DNA of 64,000 bases from Streptococcus oralis Uo5 (GTDB taxonomy: Bacteria > Bacillota > Bacilli > Lactobacillales > Streptococcaceae), in the NCBI RefSeq assembly GCF_000253155.1, contig NC_015291.1, positions 1,831,001 through 1,895,000 of the forward strand, written 5' to 3'. Shown here piece by piece: positions 54,539-60,728 of the stretch. How positions within the stretch are numbered: position 1 is the first letter of the stretch; each line of letters opens with the position of its first letter. The notes beneath the pieces are model-generated. The model had not been told where the DNA came from, did not search any database, and worked only from the letters and a program-made list of their open reading frames with translations. The translations under genes and the position numbers were made by a program.

Positions 54539-54620
54539 TTGTTACCCCTTTCATTTTCTCCTTCAAGCATAGCATAAATCTTAGAAATGCGGAAATAATC
54601 TGTTTCTCATTTTATTTTAG

Positions 54621-54658
54621 GGAACTATATACCAGTTCACACCAACAACAATATATAG
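54621..54658 (+). repeat. Left boundary repeat of the island
   Basis: It starts GGAACTATATACCAGT and ends TATATAG; CTATATA and TATATAG at its ends are mutually complementary. The inverted partner lies at 59726-59764. Confidence 0.7.
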
Positions 54659-54690
54659 AAAAAGGCTTATTAAATATTAAGCCTTTTTTG
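54659..54690 (-). terminator. Terminator of the Abi gene
   Basis: AAAAAGGCTTA and TAAGCCTTTTT arms around an AT-rich loop, overlapping the minus-strand stop codon at 54677-54679, with T's on both sides. Confidence 0.85.
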
Positions 54691-55654
54691 GTCTAGTTTC
54701 ATTTTTTATTAATAGTGTTATATTTTTAGCTGACTCTAAAGAGTTAAATCCCAATAAATAGGCCCGTTCATCATTTTCCTTACAAAGGTTTCGTATGCTC
54801 GATTGTATATCTTTCCATTTATATTTAGGATTTATTTGTTTGACAAGTTCGACGATTATTATAATCACAACAGATAGTCGATTTGTTGGTTTTTTAACAA
54901 TCTTTTCGTCTCTACCACTTTCAATAAAATAAAGGTATTTACTCCAATATTTACGTATTTTGGGTTTAGTTGTTAATTTAATATCAACTAGATTTGAATT
55001 ATGGGCGCAGATGTTTCTTATAAAATTAAGACATTTCATCCAAGAAACGAGTTCTTCATTAGTACAATTGTAGTAGGAAGATATTGACTTCAAATTAGAT
55101 TCACTCATAATTTCCAGTATTGTAACAATGTCTCCGAACATTAACAAATCAATCCCTAGCCAAACGGATGGAAACCCATCGGTATCCAAATTTTTTTCAA
55201 TATGCATCTCCGAAGACTGATTACGTTTAACTATTTTTAATAGTCTTTTTTTAATTGAAAACTGTTCTTTCTCAATTTGAAATTTTGTATATTTTCTACG
55301 ATTTGACCACGAGGAGAAATTTAGATAACCAAACGCACCGTAATTTTTACCTAACACATACGAAATCCGTGTTTTTATTGATACTTCAATTTTTTCAATA
55401 GCATGAAGTAAATAAATCCTAAGATTTTTATCCTGATAATAGCGTGTAATCACTTCCTTAAATTCCACTCCGTTATATGAAATCGAAATTTTATCATTGT
55501 TTTTTGAGATGGTAGATAAGGGTCTTGCAAACTCTTTTAACCGATAATAGCTAATATTCTTAATTTTATCAATATCATTATCAGTTACAGTCATTCCCCT
55601 ATTTTTAAATAGAGCTAGTTGTTCCTCCCACGACAGAGCTACAGGTGCTTCCAT
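54677..55654 (-). CDS. Abi_2-family abortive infection protein (HEPN-type)
   Basis: A 325-residue soluble protein of the AbiD/AbiF (Abi_2) family. The N-terminal YYRLKEFARPL segment (residues 36-46) is typical, and RNICAH (Arg213 to His218) is the RX4H motif of HEPN ribonucleases. Such proteins block phage by cleaving RNA and killing or arresting the infected cell. The ATG at 55654 follows AGGAGG. It is AT-rich, with no partner antitoxin gene visible, and has its own terminator. It lies inside the inverted-repeat-bounded island beside a restriction operon. Confidence 0.85.
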   Translation of the reverse strand: MEAPVALSWEEQLALFKNRGMTVTDNDIDKIKNISYYRLKEFARPLSTISKNNDKISISYNGVEFKEVITRYYQDKNLRIYLLHAIEKIEVSIKTRISYVLGKNYGAFGYLNFSSWSNRRKYTKFQIEKEQFSIKKRLLKIVKRNQSSEMHIEKNLDTDGFPSVWLGIDLLMFGDIVTILEIMSESNLKSISSYYNCTNEELVSWMKCLNFIRNICAHNSNLVDIKLTTKPKIRKYWSKYLYFIESGRDEKIVKKPTNRLSVVIIIIVELVKQINPKYKWKDIQSSIRNLCKENDERAYLLGFNSLESAKNITLLIKNETRPKKA

Positions 55655-55675
55655 TTATCCTCCTAAGTTATAAAA

Positions 55676-55725
55676 AAAGCCCCACATCAGAACGTATCTG
55701 TCCATTAATGGAAGTGGGGGGTTTG
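55676..55725 (-). terminator. Terminator-like hairpin after the IS partner ORF
   Basis: On the minus strand ACCCCCCAC pairs with GTGGGGCTT around a long loop that itself contains TCCATTAATGGA, followed by TTTTTT. It would end transcripts from 55773-57129. Confidence 0.65.
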
Positions 55726-55772
55726 TCATCTTAATAAGATTTTACCAGTTTCCAAGAGATTATGCAACACTT

Positions 55773-56225
55773 TTAATTGTTTTTTCTAGGGTTATAGTGC
55801 ATTGCTATCCAAAGTTTCTTGTCAAAATCAGATAGTTCTTTTTTCTTTTGATAAACGCAGTCATTCAAATCAGGGAATTTGAGACGATATTTTTTCTCAA
55901 AAAAGTTCTGAAATTCCTCTTTACTCTCTGCGACATCGACCAAGGCTTCTAGCTCAGCCATTTGTTTGGCAATAGCTTTTCTATCAATTTTCTTTTGATT
56001 ATCCCACAGTACATCATAGACACATCGTTTAGTTAGTTGGGTGTAAAACGATCGATGATTAGTGACAAAATCAAAATTGTACTTTTTATCCCAAAGTTTG
56101 GTGTACTTATCGTAAAATCCGTCAGAAAGGCTAACTTGATAGCCAATCAGCTTGCTATCAACTCTTCGTGCGATAGACCTTTCTAACTCAAAATGTAAAT
56201 CATTTAGTGTATTAGTAGCCATCAA
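55773..56225 (-). CDS. Unknown 150-residue protein overlapping the IS1595-type transposase
   Basis: A soluble, charged, probably helical protein (Lys/Asp-rich; segments LTKRCVYDVLWDNQKK and FFEKKYRLKFPDLND). I do not recognise a family. Its ATG at 56225 overlaps the transposase stop by 14 bases, so it was probably translated with the transposase and may be a passenger or accessory gene of the insertion element. The reading frame is intact although the transposase is broken. Confidence 0.6.
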   Translation of the reverse strand: MMATNTLNDLHFELERSIARRVDSKLIGYQVSLSDGFYDKYTKLWDKKYNFDFVTNHRSFYTQLTKRCVYDVLWDNQKKIDRKAIAKQMAELEALVDVAESKEEFQNFFEKKYRLKFPDLNDCVYQKKKELSDFDKKLWIAMHYNPRKNN

Positions 56226-57129
56226 TCAGTTCCCTATATTTAGTGCGGACACATGCGTTTGAAATCAAAAGATTGAAACACTGACTATCCGAATAATCAC
56301 GAGTTTTGTAACGGAAAACATATTCATCTACATAATCCTGAAGATATTTCTTAGACCATGAGTGATAAACTCCTAGAACTTCACGTTTCAATCCAGCCCC
56401 AAAGCCTTCAATCATGTTAGTATAAACATCGCCTTGCACATACTCACGAGAACTGTGATTTACAAAGTCACGTTGATACATCTTAACTACTTTATTATAA
56501 CCTAACCATTCATCTGTGTAAAGATGAGCAGTCTCTTTCACATATTTAACAATTTACTCTGTCAATGTTTTCGTCTTTGTATCTGGTACATGATGAGCAT
56601 TAACTTTACCTTGACGTTGTACCATGCCTACTACAGCAGATTTGTCTTTCAATGAACGCCCTTGAGCATTTTTGACTTTTTTGGAGTTATGACGGTTCTT
56701 GTTTTTTCCACCTATGTAGGTTTCATCCACTTCCACAACATCATCAAGACTATTGTTGTTTTCAGAACTAAAACACTTACGGATACGTTCCAGCATGAAC
56801 CAAGCTGTTTTTTGCGTAACACCAATATCTTTTGACAATTGTACAGATGAGATTCCTTTTTTGTGAGAAGTCACAAGCCAAATTGCCATAAACCATTTAC
56901 GAAGTTCAATTTTAGTATTGTCAAAAAGAGTACCAGTCTTAACATTGAAGTATTTTCCAGTATTTTTACAACGGTATTTGTTACCTTTACATTTGTAGAC
57001 CTTTGAGGTAGCATCAAAAGGGCTGATAATCATATCGCCCCAAATCATATTTTCTAAATGGTCAATACATGACTGTTCGTCTGGAAAAGCAGATTGTAAA
57101 TCAAATAATGACTTAAACTCAAACTTCAT
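56212..57129 (-). pseudogene. IS1595-family transposase with an internal stop
   Basis: A continuous 306-codon frame runs from ATG 57129 to 56212 but is interrupted once, at codon 192, by TAA (56556-56554). Before the stop are an N-terminal zinc-ribbon-like part (CKGNKYRCKNTGKYF), a helix-turn-helix and the first catalytic Asp (VVEVDETYIGG, Asp135); after it is the second Asp (YTDEWLGY, Asp206) and the YVDEYVFRY glutamate region. This is the ISXO2/IS1595 DDE pattern. One base substitution could explain the stop. No clear terminal repeats were found. Confidence 0.85.
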
Positions 57130-57224
57130 AACTGGTACTCCTTACTTCTTGATTATATTATATCTAAAACAAGAATGATTGTCAATAAAAATGTAAACTT
57201 ATACTATGTAAAAAGCCAAAATTT

Positions 57225-57233
57225 TGATATAAT
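57225..57233 (+). promoter_or_regulatory. Extended -10 promoter of the phase-variable operon
   Basis: TGATATAAT (57225-57233) is an extended -10 placed 32 bases before the leader ORF; there is no good -35. AAAGGA at 57250-57255 is the leader ribosome site. Confidence 0.75.
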
Positions 57234-57264
57234 AGAACTATCAAAAAGTAAAGGAACGATTGGT

Positions 57265-57432
57265 ATGAAAGCAATCACAGCTCACAGCTCACAGCTCACA
57301 GCTCACAGCTCACAGCTCACAGCTCACGCTGATTATGTAATCGGACGTGTTTTTTGTCAAGCTCTAAAACAGGCTTTTTCACATTTTTGTGAGGAAGCCT
57401 TTTATGCTCCCTACGAAAGTGGGGTGGCATAA
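57265..57432 (+). CDS. 55-codon leader ORF with 7-bp repeats, coupled to the methyltransferase
   Basis: ATG 57265 follows AAAGGA and the frame ends at TAA 57430-57432, which overlaps the methyltransferase ATG at 57432 (TAATG). Residues about 4-21 come from the repeat tract and read as SSQLTAH repeated; the rest is ADYVIGRVFCQAL and onward, with no recognised domain. The other two frames stop directly after the repeats, at TGA 57330-57332 and TAA 57338-57340. A change in repeat number not divisible by three would therefore end translation about 100 bases before the methyltransferase. The peptide is probably a regulatory switch rather than a functional protein. Confidence 0.7.
   Translation: MKAITAHSSQLTAHSSQLTAHADYVIGRVFCQALKQAFSHFCEEAFYAPYESGVA
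57275..57327 (+). repeat. Tandem 7-bp repeat (TCACAGC) tract
   Basis: Seven perfect copies of TCACAGC (57275-57323) plus TCAC. The unit is not a multiple of three, so slipped-strand changes shift the reading frame of the ORF containing it. Confidence 0.95.
57372..57403 (+). terminator. Terminator-like hairpin inside the leader ORF
   Basis: GGCTTTTTCACA (57372-57383) pairs with TGTGAGGAAGCC (57388-57399) through 12 bp including two G-U pairs, with a four-T loop, followed by TTTT. Ribosomes translating the full leader ORF would melt it; ribosomes stopping at 57332 or 57340 would not. Confidence 0.65.
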
Positions 57433-58415
57433 TGGCTGGCTCACTCCACAACGCTAAAAAAGCCAAAAACGATGAGTTTTATACTCGTTATAAAGATGTT
57501 GCTGAGGAAATGGGACATTATAGAGAACACTTTAGAGATAAGGTTATCTACTGTAATTGTGATGACCCAACACAATCAAATTTTTGGCGTTATTTTCATA
57601 ACAATTTTGCTAGTTTGGGTATTAAAAAACTGATAGCAACACATTTTCAAGAAGATAGCGAACCTTCGTATGCTCTGATTTATGAAGGTGGCGATGACTT
57701 CAATATGGAAGCTGGAAATATTGAAACTATTTATGGAGATGATGAGTATACCGCTGGAGATTTCCGGAGCGAGGACAGTATAAACTATCTGAAAGAAGCT
57801 GATATTGTTGTGACTAATCCTCCGTTCAGTTTGTTTAGAGAATATATTTCTCAATTAATGGAACATCAAAAAAAATTTATCGTTATCGGAAACAAAAACT
57901 CTGTAACATATAAGGAAATTTTTCCACTTATTCAGAATAACCAAATTTGGATTGGTGCTAGAAGTATGAATTCAGACTTTTGGTTGTACGTTCCAGAGGG
58001 AGCTGATTATGAAAAATTGGATGAAGATGGAAAAAAAGTAAAGCATATAATGGGTTGTTGGTTTACTAACTTAGATTTACAAAAACGACATGATGGTTTA
58101 TGGCATGTAGGTGATGTATTTGACCAAACAAAAGCTCATAAATATTACGAAGGGTTTGAGAGTAAATACCCTAAATACGATAACTACGATGCAATAAATA
58201 TAGATAATGTTAAAGACATTCCAATTGATTATGATGGTGTAATGGGAGTACCAATAACTTTTATCAATTATTTCAATCCAACTGAATTCGAGATTATTAA
58301 ATTCAGAAAAGGAGATGACGATAAAGATTTAACAATAGATGGGAAACCTCCATATTTCAGAATTTTAGTTAGAAATCTAAATCCAATTAGTCGTGATGAA
58401 GATAAGGGATATTGA
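57432..58415 (+). CDS. Adenine-specific DNA methyltransferase, EcoRI family
   Basis: A 327-residue DNA adenine methyltransferase. The N-terminal NAKKAKNDEFYTRY segment (residues 7-20), CNCDDP (41-46) and the catalytic NPPF (129-132) match the EcoRI-methylase family. It protects DNA by N6-methylation; its recognition sequence cannot be inferred. ATG 57432 overlaps the leader ORF stop and has only a weak ribosome site of its own (GTGGGG), so its translation probably depends on the leader. The nuclease gene follows 15 bases after the stop. Confidence 0.9.
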   Translation: MAGSLHNAKKAKNDEFYTRYKDVAEEMGHYREHFRDKVIYCNCDDPTQSNFWRYFHNNFASLGIKKLIATHFQEDSEPSYALIYEGGDDFNMEAGNIETIYGDDEYTAGDFRSEDSINYLKEADIVVTNPPFSLFREYISQLMEHQKKFIVIGNKNSVTYKEIFPLIQNNQIWIGARSMNSDFWLYVPEGADYEKLDEDGKKVKHIMGCWFTNLDLQKRHDGLWHVGDVFDQTKAHKYYEGFESKYPKYDNYDAINIDNVKDIPIDYDGVMGVPITFINYFNPTEFEIIKFRKGDDDKDLTIDGKPPYFRILVRNLNPISRDEDKGY

Positions 58416-58430
58416 TAAAAGGAGAATAAA

Positions 58431-59669
58431 ATGAAAGTAAGAAGATTAAGAGATATACTTGATAGACCATTCACTATCAGAGATTTAGCTAGTGGGTATA
58501 CCAATAATGATGATGGTGCTACTACTGACGCTGTAAAAGGATATAATGGTAACTTGAATATTCGTCCTTCTTATCAGAGAAATAGCGTATATAACGAAGA
58601 TAAGAGACAAGCTGTAATTCAAACCGTTTTAGATGAGTGTCCTTTAGGTATTATGTACTGGGTTGATTTAGGAAACGGACAATATGAAGTTCTCGATGGT
58701 CAACAACGTATTTTAGCTATTTGTAATTATGTTATGGGGAATTACTCTGTAAAATCAAGTAAATTTCCATCCAGTGCTCCACAACAAGATTTCCCAAATC
58801 TTCAGATGAACCTAACTGACTTAGCAGAACAAATTCTTGATTATGAGTTAGACATATATGTTTGTGAAGGAACTGCTTCCGAAAAAATGAAATGGTTTCA
58901 TGTTATCAATACAGCAGGCGAACCATTAAATGAGCAAGAATTAAGAAACTCTGCTTATACAGGAACTTGGCTTTCTGATGCTAAACAAAGATTTTCAACA
59001 AAGACTGGACGTGGCGTTGTACTTGCTGACGAGAATCCGAATAACGATAAATCAGAACCACTATTAAATGGTAATTGGAATAGACAAGAGTATCTACAAA
59101 CTGCTATTAAATGGTCTTCACAAAATGATAATGACAATACTACAAATACAATAGAAGATTATATGTTGAAGCATCAAGGAGATGCAGATGCTTCTGAATT
59201 ATGGCAAAATTTCTCTGCCATACTTGAATGGGTTCGCGGAAAGTTTATAAGCTATCAAAACAGTTTGAAAGGGATGGATTGGGGGACAATCTACAAAGAG
59301 TATCAATCAGGACAGTTAGACAACAACATCATTAAAAATAGTGCTTCTGTCATTAACGAAAAAATTGCAGAGTTGGTAAATGATGATGAAGTCACAACTA
59401 AAATGAAAGGGATTTATCAGTACATCATTTATGGAGATTCCAAATATCTCCAACTTAGAGCTTTTGATGATAAAACCATCAAGCAAAAATATGAAGAACA
59501 GAGCCATCACTGCGTTTATTGTGTTGATGAAGGAAACAACAGGGAGTACGCTCTTAAAGAACTAGCAGGCGACCATATTATACCATGGTCTTTAGGTGGA
59601 AAAACTGTCCCTGAAAATTGCCAACTATTATGCAAAAAACACAACTCTTCAAAAGGGAACAACTATTAA
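58431..59669 (+). CDS. DUF262 (GmrSD-type) protein with C-terminal HNH nuclease domain
   Basis: A 412-residue protein. The N-terminal DUF262 domain has YQR (residues 48-50) and DGQQR (89-93), the ParB-like NTPase motif of GmrS/SspE proteins. The C-terminal HNH domain shows Cys361-x2-Cys364, DHIIPW (His382), Asn396, Cys401 and His404. The ribosome site AAAAGGAG precedes ATG 58431. Placed directly after an EcoRI-type methyltransferase, it is the likely restriction partner; alternatively, by analogy with GmrSD and SspE, it could be a modification-sensing nuclease. Confidence 0.88.
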   Translation: MKVRRLRDILDRPFTIRDLASGYTNNDDGATTDAVKGYNGNLNIRPSYQRNSVYNEDKRQAVIQTVLDECPLGIMYWVDLGNGQYEVLDGQQRILAICNYVMGNYSVKSSKFPSSAPQQDFPNLQMNLTDLAEQILDYELDIYVCEGTASEKMKWFHVINTAGEPLNEQELRNSAYTGTWLSDAKQRFSTKTGRGVVLADENPNNDKSEPLLNGNWNRQEYLQTAIKWSSQNDNDNTTNTIEDYMLKHQGDADASELWQNFSAILEWVRGKFISYQNSLKGMDWGTIYKEYQSGQLDNNIIKNSASVINEKIAELVNDDEVTTKMKGIYQYIIYGDSKYLQLRAFDDKTIKQKYEEQSHHCVYCVDEGNNREYALKELAGDHIIPWSLGGKTVPENCQLLCKKHNSSKGNNY

Positions 59670-59676
59670 AAGTGAA

Positions 59677-59709
59677 AAGGCGACTTCCAAAACGGAAATC
59701 GTCTTTTTT
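59677..59709 (+). terminator. Terminator after the DUF262-HNH gene
   Basis: GGCGACTTCC and GGAAATCGTC pair (one mismatch, one G-U) with a five-base loop, followed by TTTTTT, 10 bases after the stop. Confidence 0.82.
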
Positions 59710-59725
59710 GATATTCTCATAAATA

Positions 59726-59764
59726 CTATATGTTGTTGGTGGTGTATACTGGTATATAGTTTCC
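59726..59764 (-). repeat. Right boundary repeat of the island
   Basis: On the minus strand it begins GGAAACTATATACCAGT and matches 54621-54658 along most of its length, so the two copies are inverted. Confidence 0.7.
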
Positions 59765-59839
59765 TTGTTTTAAAGCCGATTTCCTCGTCATTATTCCATA
59801 GAAACAGCAAACACACGACTCCCCCTTTAGGCATTTTTA

Positions 59840-59848
59840 TGCTAAAAT
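59840..59848 (+). promoter_or_regulatory. hslO extended -10, likely giving a leaderless mRNA
   Basis: TGCTAAAAT (59840-59848) is an extended -10 whose hexamer ends 7 bases before the hslO ATG, so transcription should start at or next to the A of the start codon. No ribosome site precedes the ATG. Confidence 0.65.
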
Positions 59849-59855
59849 AGTAGCT

Positions 59856-60728
59856 ATGGATAAAATTATTAAAACTATATCAGAAAGCGGTTCTTTTCGT
59901 GCTTTCGTCCTTGATAGCACGGAAACCGTCCGCACTGCTCAAGAAAAACATCAAACTCAAGCCAGTTCAACTGTTGCACTTGGTCGTACCCTTATCGCTA
60001 GCCAAATTCTCGCAGCTAATGAAAAAGGAAATACCAAGCTAACGATTAAAGTTCTTGGAACCAGCTCTCTCGGTGCCATCATCACGGTCGCAGATACTAA
60101 GGGAAATGTCAAAGGCTATGTGCAAAATCCCGGTGTAGATATCAAAAAAACTGCAACGGGTGAAGTCCTAGTCGGTCCTTTTGTCGGCAATGGTCAATTT
60201 CTCGTTATCACAGACTATGGTACTGGAAATCCTTACAACTCCATGACTCCTCTCATCTCTGGAGAAATCGGTGAAGACTTGGCCTACTACCTGACAGAAA
60301 GCCAACAAACTCCTTCAGCAGTCGGCCTCAATGTTCTTTTAGACAAAGACGACAAGGTCGAAGTTGCCGGTGGTTTTCTTCTCCAAGTATTGCCAGGAGC
60401 AAAGGAAGAGGAGATTGCTCGCTTTGAGAAACGCATCCAAGAAATGCCAGCTATCTCGACTCTTCTGGAAAGCGATGACCATATCGAAGCCCTTCTCAAG
60501 GCCATCTATGGTGACGAATCCTACAAACGCCTATCTGAAGAAGAAATTCGTTTCCAATGTGACTGCAGCAAAGACCGTTTTATGAACGCTCTTGCCAGCC
60601 TTCCAAATTCAGACCTTGAAGAAATGAAAGAGGAAGACCACGGGGCAGAAATCACTTGTCAATTCTGCCAAACAACTTATAACTTTGATGAAAACGACCT
60701 GGAGGAACTCATTCGTGACAAATCTTAA
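59856..60728 (+). CDS. hslO: Redox-regulated chaperone Hsp33
   Basis: A 290-residue cytosolic holdase activated by oxidation. The C-terminal zinc/redox switch is FQCDCSKDR and [12 protein letters not shown] (four Cys near residues 234-270). ATG 59856 lacks a ribosome site; the promoter is so close that the mRNA is probably leaderless. It overlaps dusB by 14 bases. The defence island lies directly upstream. Confidence 0.96.

Follow-up and report, generated by a model that had tools for sequence, protein, structure and literature searches.

Phasevarions are Type III mod, Type IIG and Type I systems with simple sequence repeats inside their restriction-modification (R-M) genes, where slippage gives random ON/OFF expression. 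IS1595-family insertion sequences may carry passenger genes between terminal inverted repeats, and an 8-bp target duplication is typical of the family. Here we analyse a 64,000-nt stretch (hereafter the window) of the 1.96-Mb genome of Streptococcus oralis Uo5 (NC_015291.1, positions 1,831,001 to 1,895,000), in which a repeat-bearing leader open reading frame (ORF) precedes an EcoRI-family methyltransferase gene and a putative nuclease gene (Table 1). We consider it probable that the leader is a phase-variable expression switch which combines a transcriptional attenuator with a translational lock, and which moves with interchangeable R-M cargo on an IS1595-type transposon.

Like phasevarions, this locus is proposed to turn a methyltransferase randomly ON and OFF by simple-repeat slippage. 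Unlike them, its array lies outside the methyltransferase and specificity genes, in a separate upstream leader ORF ending at the methyltransferase start, so that switching would leave the enzyme itself unchanged, and a single leader type stands before many enzyme families. A second comparison is with the pil1 and pil3 pilus operons of Streptococcus gallolyticus (Danne et al. 2014; PMC3894217), where the repeats lie in a leader peptide whose long frame prevents termination, and where the short frame of pil1 stops 39-49 bp before a terminator of -18.7 kcal/mol. The mechanism was tested there by partial hairpin deletion, removal of the leader start and chloramphenicol; switching occurs at approximately 5e-3 per cell per generation, and the Discussion gives 28 nt as the minimum distance from short-frame stop to terminator. 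The locus in the window resembles pil1/pil3 in its promoter, short leader ORF, non-triplet repeats, short-frame stop tens of nucleotides before a hairpin, long frame that enters or crosses this hairpin, and repeat number differing between isolates. It differs in its cargo (R-M here, pilus genes with GCAGA units there) and in three features not described for pil1/pil3 in the sections available, namely a stop-start overlap, a second fold masking the downstream Shine-Dalgarno (SD) sequence, and use as a mobile module common to unrelated cargo. The likeness to pil1 is one of layout; no GCAGA locus among those fetched was identified as pil1. One such locus (L160, in genome G076) carries an ATGA(GCAGA)8 array, a strong hairpin and a TAATG overlap onto another ORF, and looks like an independent phase-variable leader; in two others (L158, L161) a strong hairpin likewise follows a GCAGA array.

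Pneumococcal SpnIII (ivr) and SpnIV (tvr), as treated in the available parts of PMC6265443 and PMC4263131, are likewise streptococcal phase-variable R-M systems; there specificity is changed by recombinase-driven shuffling, whereas here an ON/OFF frame switch is proposed. Among the papers listed by a literature search, no title or opening of an abstract describes a leader-switched R-M system, and the accessible portions of these two papers and of reviews from 2026 (PMC13076061) and 2025 (PMC12707154) make no mention of one. An initial sequence-only reading of this locus knew of no described system of this layout; for R-M we too found no description in the literature searched, while the leader-repeat-terminator logic itself is known from pil1/pil3 (PMC3894217). 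Each ingredient of the system has a known relative, and what is new relative to pil1/pil3 is the R-M cargo, the second lock, the swapping of cargo, and the IS1595-type transposon with its terminal repeats and 8-bp duplications.

Table 1. Features of the R-M locus and of the element around it, in window coordinates.
Feature	Position	Strand	Basis and details
Extended -10 promoter element TGATATAAT	57225-57233	+	sequence reading
Leader ribosome site AAAGGA	57250-57255	+	-6.5 kcal/mol to anti-SD
Putative phase-variable leader ORF, 55 codons	57265-57432	+	ON frame in this assembly; ATG 57265, TAA 57430-57432
Tandem array, TCACAGC x 7.6	57275-57327	+	TRF, 100% match
Off-frame stop TGA	57330-57332	+	sequence reading
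Off-frame stop TAA	57338-57340	+	sequence reading
Terminator-like hairpin, 13 pairs, with T-run	57371-57400	+	folding
Second hairpin, covering methyltransferase SD up to start codon	57402-57432	+	folding
EcoRI-family adenine methyltransferase, 327 aa	57432-58415	+	PF13651 EcoRI_methylase 1e-107; PADLOC MTase_II
Putative restriction nuclease, GmrSD_N + HNH, 412 aa	58431-59669	+	domain profiles; PADLOC REase_II
Transposon-like element	54620-59764	.	inverted repeats GGGAACTATATACCAG.../...TATATAGTTTCC; flanks TTATTTTA / TTGTTTTA, 7/8 identical
IS1595-family transposase	56212-57129	-	DDE domain match; two separate ORF pieces, 56554-57129 and 56212-56541
150-aa ORF beside transposase	55773-56225	-	ORF list and profiles; no Pfam match
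AbiD/Abi_2-family abortive-infection gene inside element	54677-55654	-	profiles

The leader was examined at 47 loci in 40 of 284 Streptococcus genomes. A DNA pattern of its conserved part matched 34 of these genomes (a control pattern matched none), and a 27-residue leader profile matched 42; among the latter, the match in G231 was discounted as a chance one (weak, with many stops and no leader anatomy), and that in G160, a decayed remnant, was not counted as a leader locus. A protein search with the leader returned 218 relatives, and the named ones among the 120 listed were all from Streptococcus; named records carrying the leader pattern (26 stretches) include S. cristatus, S. oralis, S. infantis, S. 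suis, S. gallolyticus, S. gordonii and S. australis. At the level of the order (395 genomes of 80 genera) there were ten Streptococcus hits and nothing convincing outside the genus, an eleventh hit (G503, E 6e-4), confined to the repeat part and lying inside a 1007-aa frame, being taken as chance. No leader was found in the viral contigs, phages or plasmids searched.

The sequence-only reading had described an extended -10 element driving a 55-codon repeat-bearing ORF, a TAATG overlap between the leader stop and the start of an EcoRI-family methyltransferase gene, and stops at 57332 and 57340 in the other two frames, and the present analysis confirms all of these. The array comprises 7.6 perfect copies and is the top tandem array of the window (TRF score 106; runner-up 57). 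As in pil1, a promoter precedes a short ORF that has its own SD and a non-triplet array, and the extended -10 takes the form TGNTATAAT at 31 of 36 leader loci with upstream sequence. The two off-frame stops end 38 and 30 nt before the first base of the hairpin, both beyond the 28-nt minimum of pil1. This geometry is general: both off-frames stop before the hairpin at all 47 loci, the on-frame crosses it at 38 of the 39 loci checked, and at 44 of 47 the last base of the on-frame stop lies 0-14 nt beyond the first base of the following start codon, the three exceptions being -1, -5 and -30.

Of 44 array-bearing loci, 33 have a 7-bp unit (TCACAGC, once TCACAGT), eight a 5-bp unit (ACAGC, AAATC) and three an 8-bp unit (TCACCAGC, TCACAAGC); no unit length is divisible by three. 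Where the leader start is resolved and at least three copies are present, copy number ranges from 3.4 to 23.6, and 10 loci are ON and 19 OFF, related loci being counted separately; this is near the expected one third and fits freely drifting frames. The sequence-only reading had suggested looking for homologous loci with varying repeat number, and such loci exist, in both ON and OFF frames: more than one copy number occurs in 14 of 99 flank groups, among the 120 leader proteins examined of the 218 found. One of these proteins (P0054) is the window's upstream-extended ORF with identical flanks, minus one SSQLTAH, i.e. three repeats fewer. Both frame states are also visible in the ORFs chosen by gene callers, 29 of 120 of which begin at the leader ATG, while another 80 extend further upstream and do not have the leader ATG in their frame. 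Draft contigs were seen to start or stop within the leader array at L056, L057, L063, L064, L066, L072 and L081-L084; given these breaks, and since some of the genomes concerned have more than one leader, short-read assemblies are expected to under-report both the switch and its state.

Two RNA elements absent from the sequence-only reading lie between the off-frame stops and the methyltransferase gene. The first, the terminator-like hairpin, folds at -18.7 kcal/mol (z -5.5; none of 200 shuffles folds as well) and is the sole terminator-like site within 57000-58000, where shuffles average 0.5. A hairpin stands at the same place at 46 of 47 loci, with energies of -12.3 to -26.1 kcal/mol; in G276 the energy is only -6.7, and in G035 the same place is held by a hairpin of different letters. 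In an alignment of 38 rows (22 distinct; G276, which has lost both hairpin and repeats and keeps an intact methyltransferase gene, excluded), 97.9% of cells are paired, as against 38-69% in slid controls, and the tail averages 6.6 T in 9 nt over 39 loci. A hairpin with a T-run crossed by the long frame, as in pil1, is therefore present as far as the letters tell, with a T-run that is short in the window. The covariation score of the hairpin was matched by 7 of 500 shuffles and the paired-cell count by 25 of 500; RNAalifold counts three double-change pairs when identical rows are included separately. We dropped covariation as strong evidence and regard it as modest. An Rfam search of 56900-59900 gave nothing near gathering score.

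The second element bears on the methyltransferase ribosome site, which the sequence-only reading had called poor. That description fails for the sequence itself, whose pairing to the anti-SD (-15.9 kcal/mol) is stronger than that of the leader (-6.5) or of the nuclease gene (-9.3), and is apt for its effect, in that the SD is predicted to be buried in the second hairpin with a probability of 0.14 of being unpaired. Coupling because of a poor SD was accordingly rejected on the strength of the pairing, and partly restored once the SD proved masked. The masks of other cargoes are built from unrelated sequences, e.g. in G019 a long inverted repeat around the SD and the start codon (z -6.7), and in G050 one between the leader tail and the 5' end of the methyltransferase gene (z -5.9). 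Such cargo-specific masking would account for the variation of the leader tail from cargo to cargo. The SD is unpaired with a median probability of 0.21 in the 26 loci folded (of 47); 27 control starts give 0.57 (p 5e-6). For 15 representatives hand-picked from these 26, covering 12 of 14 cargo groups with some groups giving two, the median is 0.20, compared with 0.52 for 59 controls with a strong SD (p 5e-6), three of the representatives (L050, L057, L071) having an SD weaker than the -9 cut used for the controls. The cargo groups without a representative are the remnants G116/G120 and G085.

From these parts we propose the following mechanism. Slippage of the non-triplet array would set the frame in which the leader ribosome leaves the repeats. 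In the off-frames (two of three states), the ribosome would halt within approximately 15 nt, 30-38 nt before the terminator-like hairpin, which would then form and end transcription; in any transcript that escaped, the strong methyltransferase ribosome site would remain locked in the second fold. In the on-frame, the ribosome would cross the terminator, open the second fold and end on the methyltransferase start codon, and methyltransferase and nuclease would both be made. The two genes are on the same strand, 15 nt apart, and would thus be expected to switch together; the nuclease gene has its own SD. Slippage and its rate, termination, opening of the lock and expression at leader loci are steps that we infer. 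Given that the geometry is similar to that of the tested pil1/pil3 leaders, we favour phase-variable attenuation together with coupling, attenuation at this locus being presumed by analogy.

The sequence-only reading had the repeats acting through an upstream coupled ORF. The placement of the array outside the methyltransferase gene and the on-frame ending at the next start at most loci bear this out, and coupling alone is nevertheless incomplete as an account: the leader contains a conserved terminator-like hairpin, and the SD downstream of it, though strong, is predicted to be sequestered. If translational coupling were the whole mechanism, the leader would deliver ribosomes to the methyltransferase start and unmask it, and the hairpin at 57371-57400 would be no working terminator. 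The overlap or abutment of stop and start, the burial of the SD by cargo-specific folds and the short T-run in the window all agree with this. However, the hairpin is kept at nearly all loci with a T-rich tail, it lies clear of the SD, so that coupling alone leaves it without a role, and in the pil1 leader, which has the same order of parts, the hairpin is a tested terminator (PMC3894217). We therefore regard coupling alone as unlikely.

Several observations weigh against attenuation combined with a translational lock. The hairpin of the window is followed by just four consecutive T after its last paired C. Covariation in the hairpin alignment is modest, the two double-change pairs not exceeding those of shuffles (151 of 500). 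In G015 the repeats are lost and the frame is off, and the hairpin is kept with an intact methyltransferase gene, which suggests that the OFF state may leak. The second lock is not strong in the cargo representative from G005 (L049; probability unpaired 0.53, z 0.3) and has weak z values in L077 (-0.6) and L182 (-0.2). Non-triplet units are weak evidence on their own, as there are few independent unit types, and the 10:19 split of ON and OFF includes related loci as separate counts.

The genes behind the leader fall into 14 groups at 40% identity (single linkage), comprising 12 DNA methyltransferase groups and two remnant groups (G116/G120 and G085); the leader anatomy is thus conserved across unrelated cargo. 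The classes include EcoRI-type Type II enzymes, Type IIG enzymes of several N6_Mtase families (in some cases with a specificity gene), Type III mod accompanied by res, an N6_N4 methylase with RAMA, and an NPPY-motif family of approximately 770 aa. The first ORF behind the leader has at least 300 aa at 40 of 47 loci, and in the group G045/G082 both members carry an interruption close to the gene start. The NPPY-motif methyltransferase-like family is the commonest cargo (e.g. the first ORFs of L050 and L051, of 763 and 773 aa), and these two members gave no Pfam, NCBIfam or PADLOC match. L069 and L070 (G116, G120) appear to be element fossils, with 19.6 and 23.4 copies, no extended -10 found, and approximately the first 27 methyltransferase codons left.

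Among the 284 genomes, the four closest relatives of the window's methyltransferase all have the leader (G074, 99% identity; G263, 99%; G196, 92%; G131, 84%), with arrays other than that of the window: two run into contig ends and have at least 6 and at least 18 copies, one has 8.2 copies of an 8-bp unit, and one has 15.6 copies. Among ten remoter relatives within the genus (35-48% identity, tblastn), the leader is present at G196b and absent from the other nine, indicating that it does not simply accompany the enzyme family. Methyltransferase and nuclease genes in one operon, as in a Type II R-M system, are recognized by profile in the window and in G196b; G074b, G131, G196a and G263b have a 412-aa second ORF at the nuclease position, the correspondence being one of place and length.

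An alternative is that recombination is the main role of the repeats and near-identical leaders, as sites at which elements swap R-M cargo, with the frame effect secondary. Several genomes do carry two or more leaders (G021, G074, G196, G245, G263), and the same leader occurs with differing cargo. Recombination leaves unexplained the conserved off-frame stops, the hairpin, the stop-start overlap, the SD locks and the non-triplet units, and it sits poorly with a leader tail that differs with cargo; as the main function we consider it very improbable. Still fainter is the case for a functional peptide (a regulator or toxin-like product whose length the repeats tune), since, despite conservation of FCQALKQAFSHFCE at the amino-acid level, the repeat-encoded peptides are wholly different by unit type (SSQLTAH, SSPAHQLT, AQHST, IKSNQ), the C-terminus changes with each cargo, the conserved stretch is where the off-frame stops and the hairpin lie, and 19 of the 29 resolved loci with at least three copies are out of frame. 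That the array is a passive remnant of a constitutive system is just as improbable. Leaders that have lost their repeats exist (G015, G082, G276), but other arrays are long and perfect, copy number varies where flanks are identical, and long methyltransferase ORFs persist downstream of leaders in an OFF frame.

The switch proposed above would move with its cargo on an IS1595-type transposon. Leader-bearing elements share with the IS1595 family terminal inverted repeats and target duplications of 8 bp, and the one in the window has an IS1595 transposase domain, split between two ORF pieces. They differ from family members with passengers in that their cargo is R-M behind a putatively phase-variable leader. 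The same right end is found at 29 of 39 loci; at 28 of these it lies 58-80 nt past the last cargo gene, and at one the distance is 133 nt. Both ends are present at 16 of the 17 loci searched for both. Eleven of these 16 have perfect 8-bp flank duplications (9 distinct sequences); the window matches at 7 of 8 positions and four others at 4-5 of 8. The IS1595 transposase and the adjacent 150-aa ORF stand upstream of the leader at 12 of 39 loci including the window, the remaining 27 having no transposase in the stretch fetched, and ten of the 39 having less than 1 kb upstream. The 150-aa ORF accompanies the transposase at all 12 (36-92% identity outside the window), occurs as fragments at two further loci, and is possibly part of the element's own machinery. 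The AbiD-family gene had no relative at the other leader loci fetched, ten of which were extended further upstream. A minus-strand consensus promoter (12/12; TTGACA-17-TATAAT) at 57157-57185 points into the transposase, back to back with the leader promoter.

Taken more broadly, we lean towards the view that a device for phase variation, borne on transposons and independent of its cargo, is present in streptococci. It would consist of a repeat leader with two locks (an attenuator and a cargo-fitted SD mask), through which any acquired R-M system would become randomly switchable with its enzyme unaltered, and a moving library of Type II, IIG and III systems would be bet-hedged by one shared switch. 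If true, this would explain how many unrelated streptococcal R-M systems become phase-variable, and the leader-attenuator known from two pilus operons would be a general, mobile module. Repeat counts taken from ordinary genome data would reveal ON/OFF epigenetic states, and surveys that seek repeats only inside methyltransferase genes would miss the switch. It may also give a testable account of how cells tolerate an incoming nuclease, which would arrive under a switch with two OFF states out of three.

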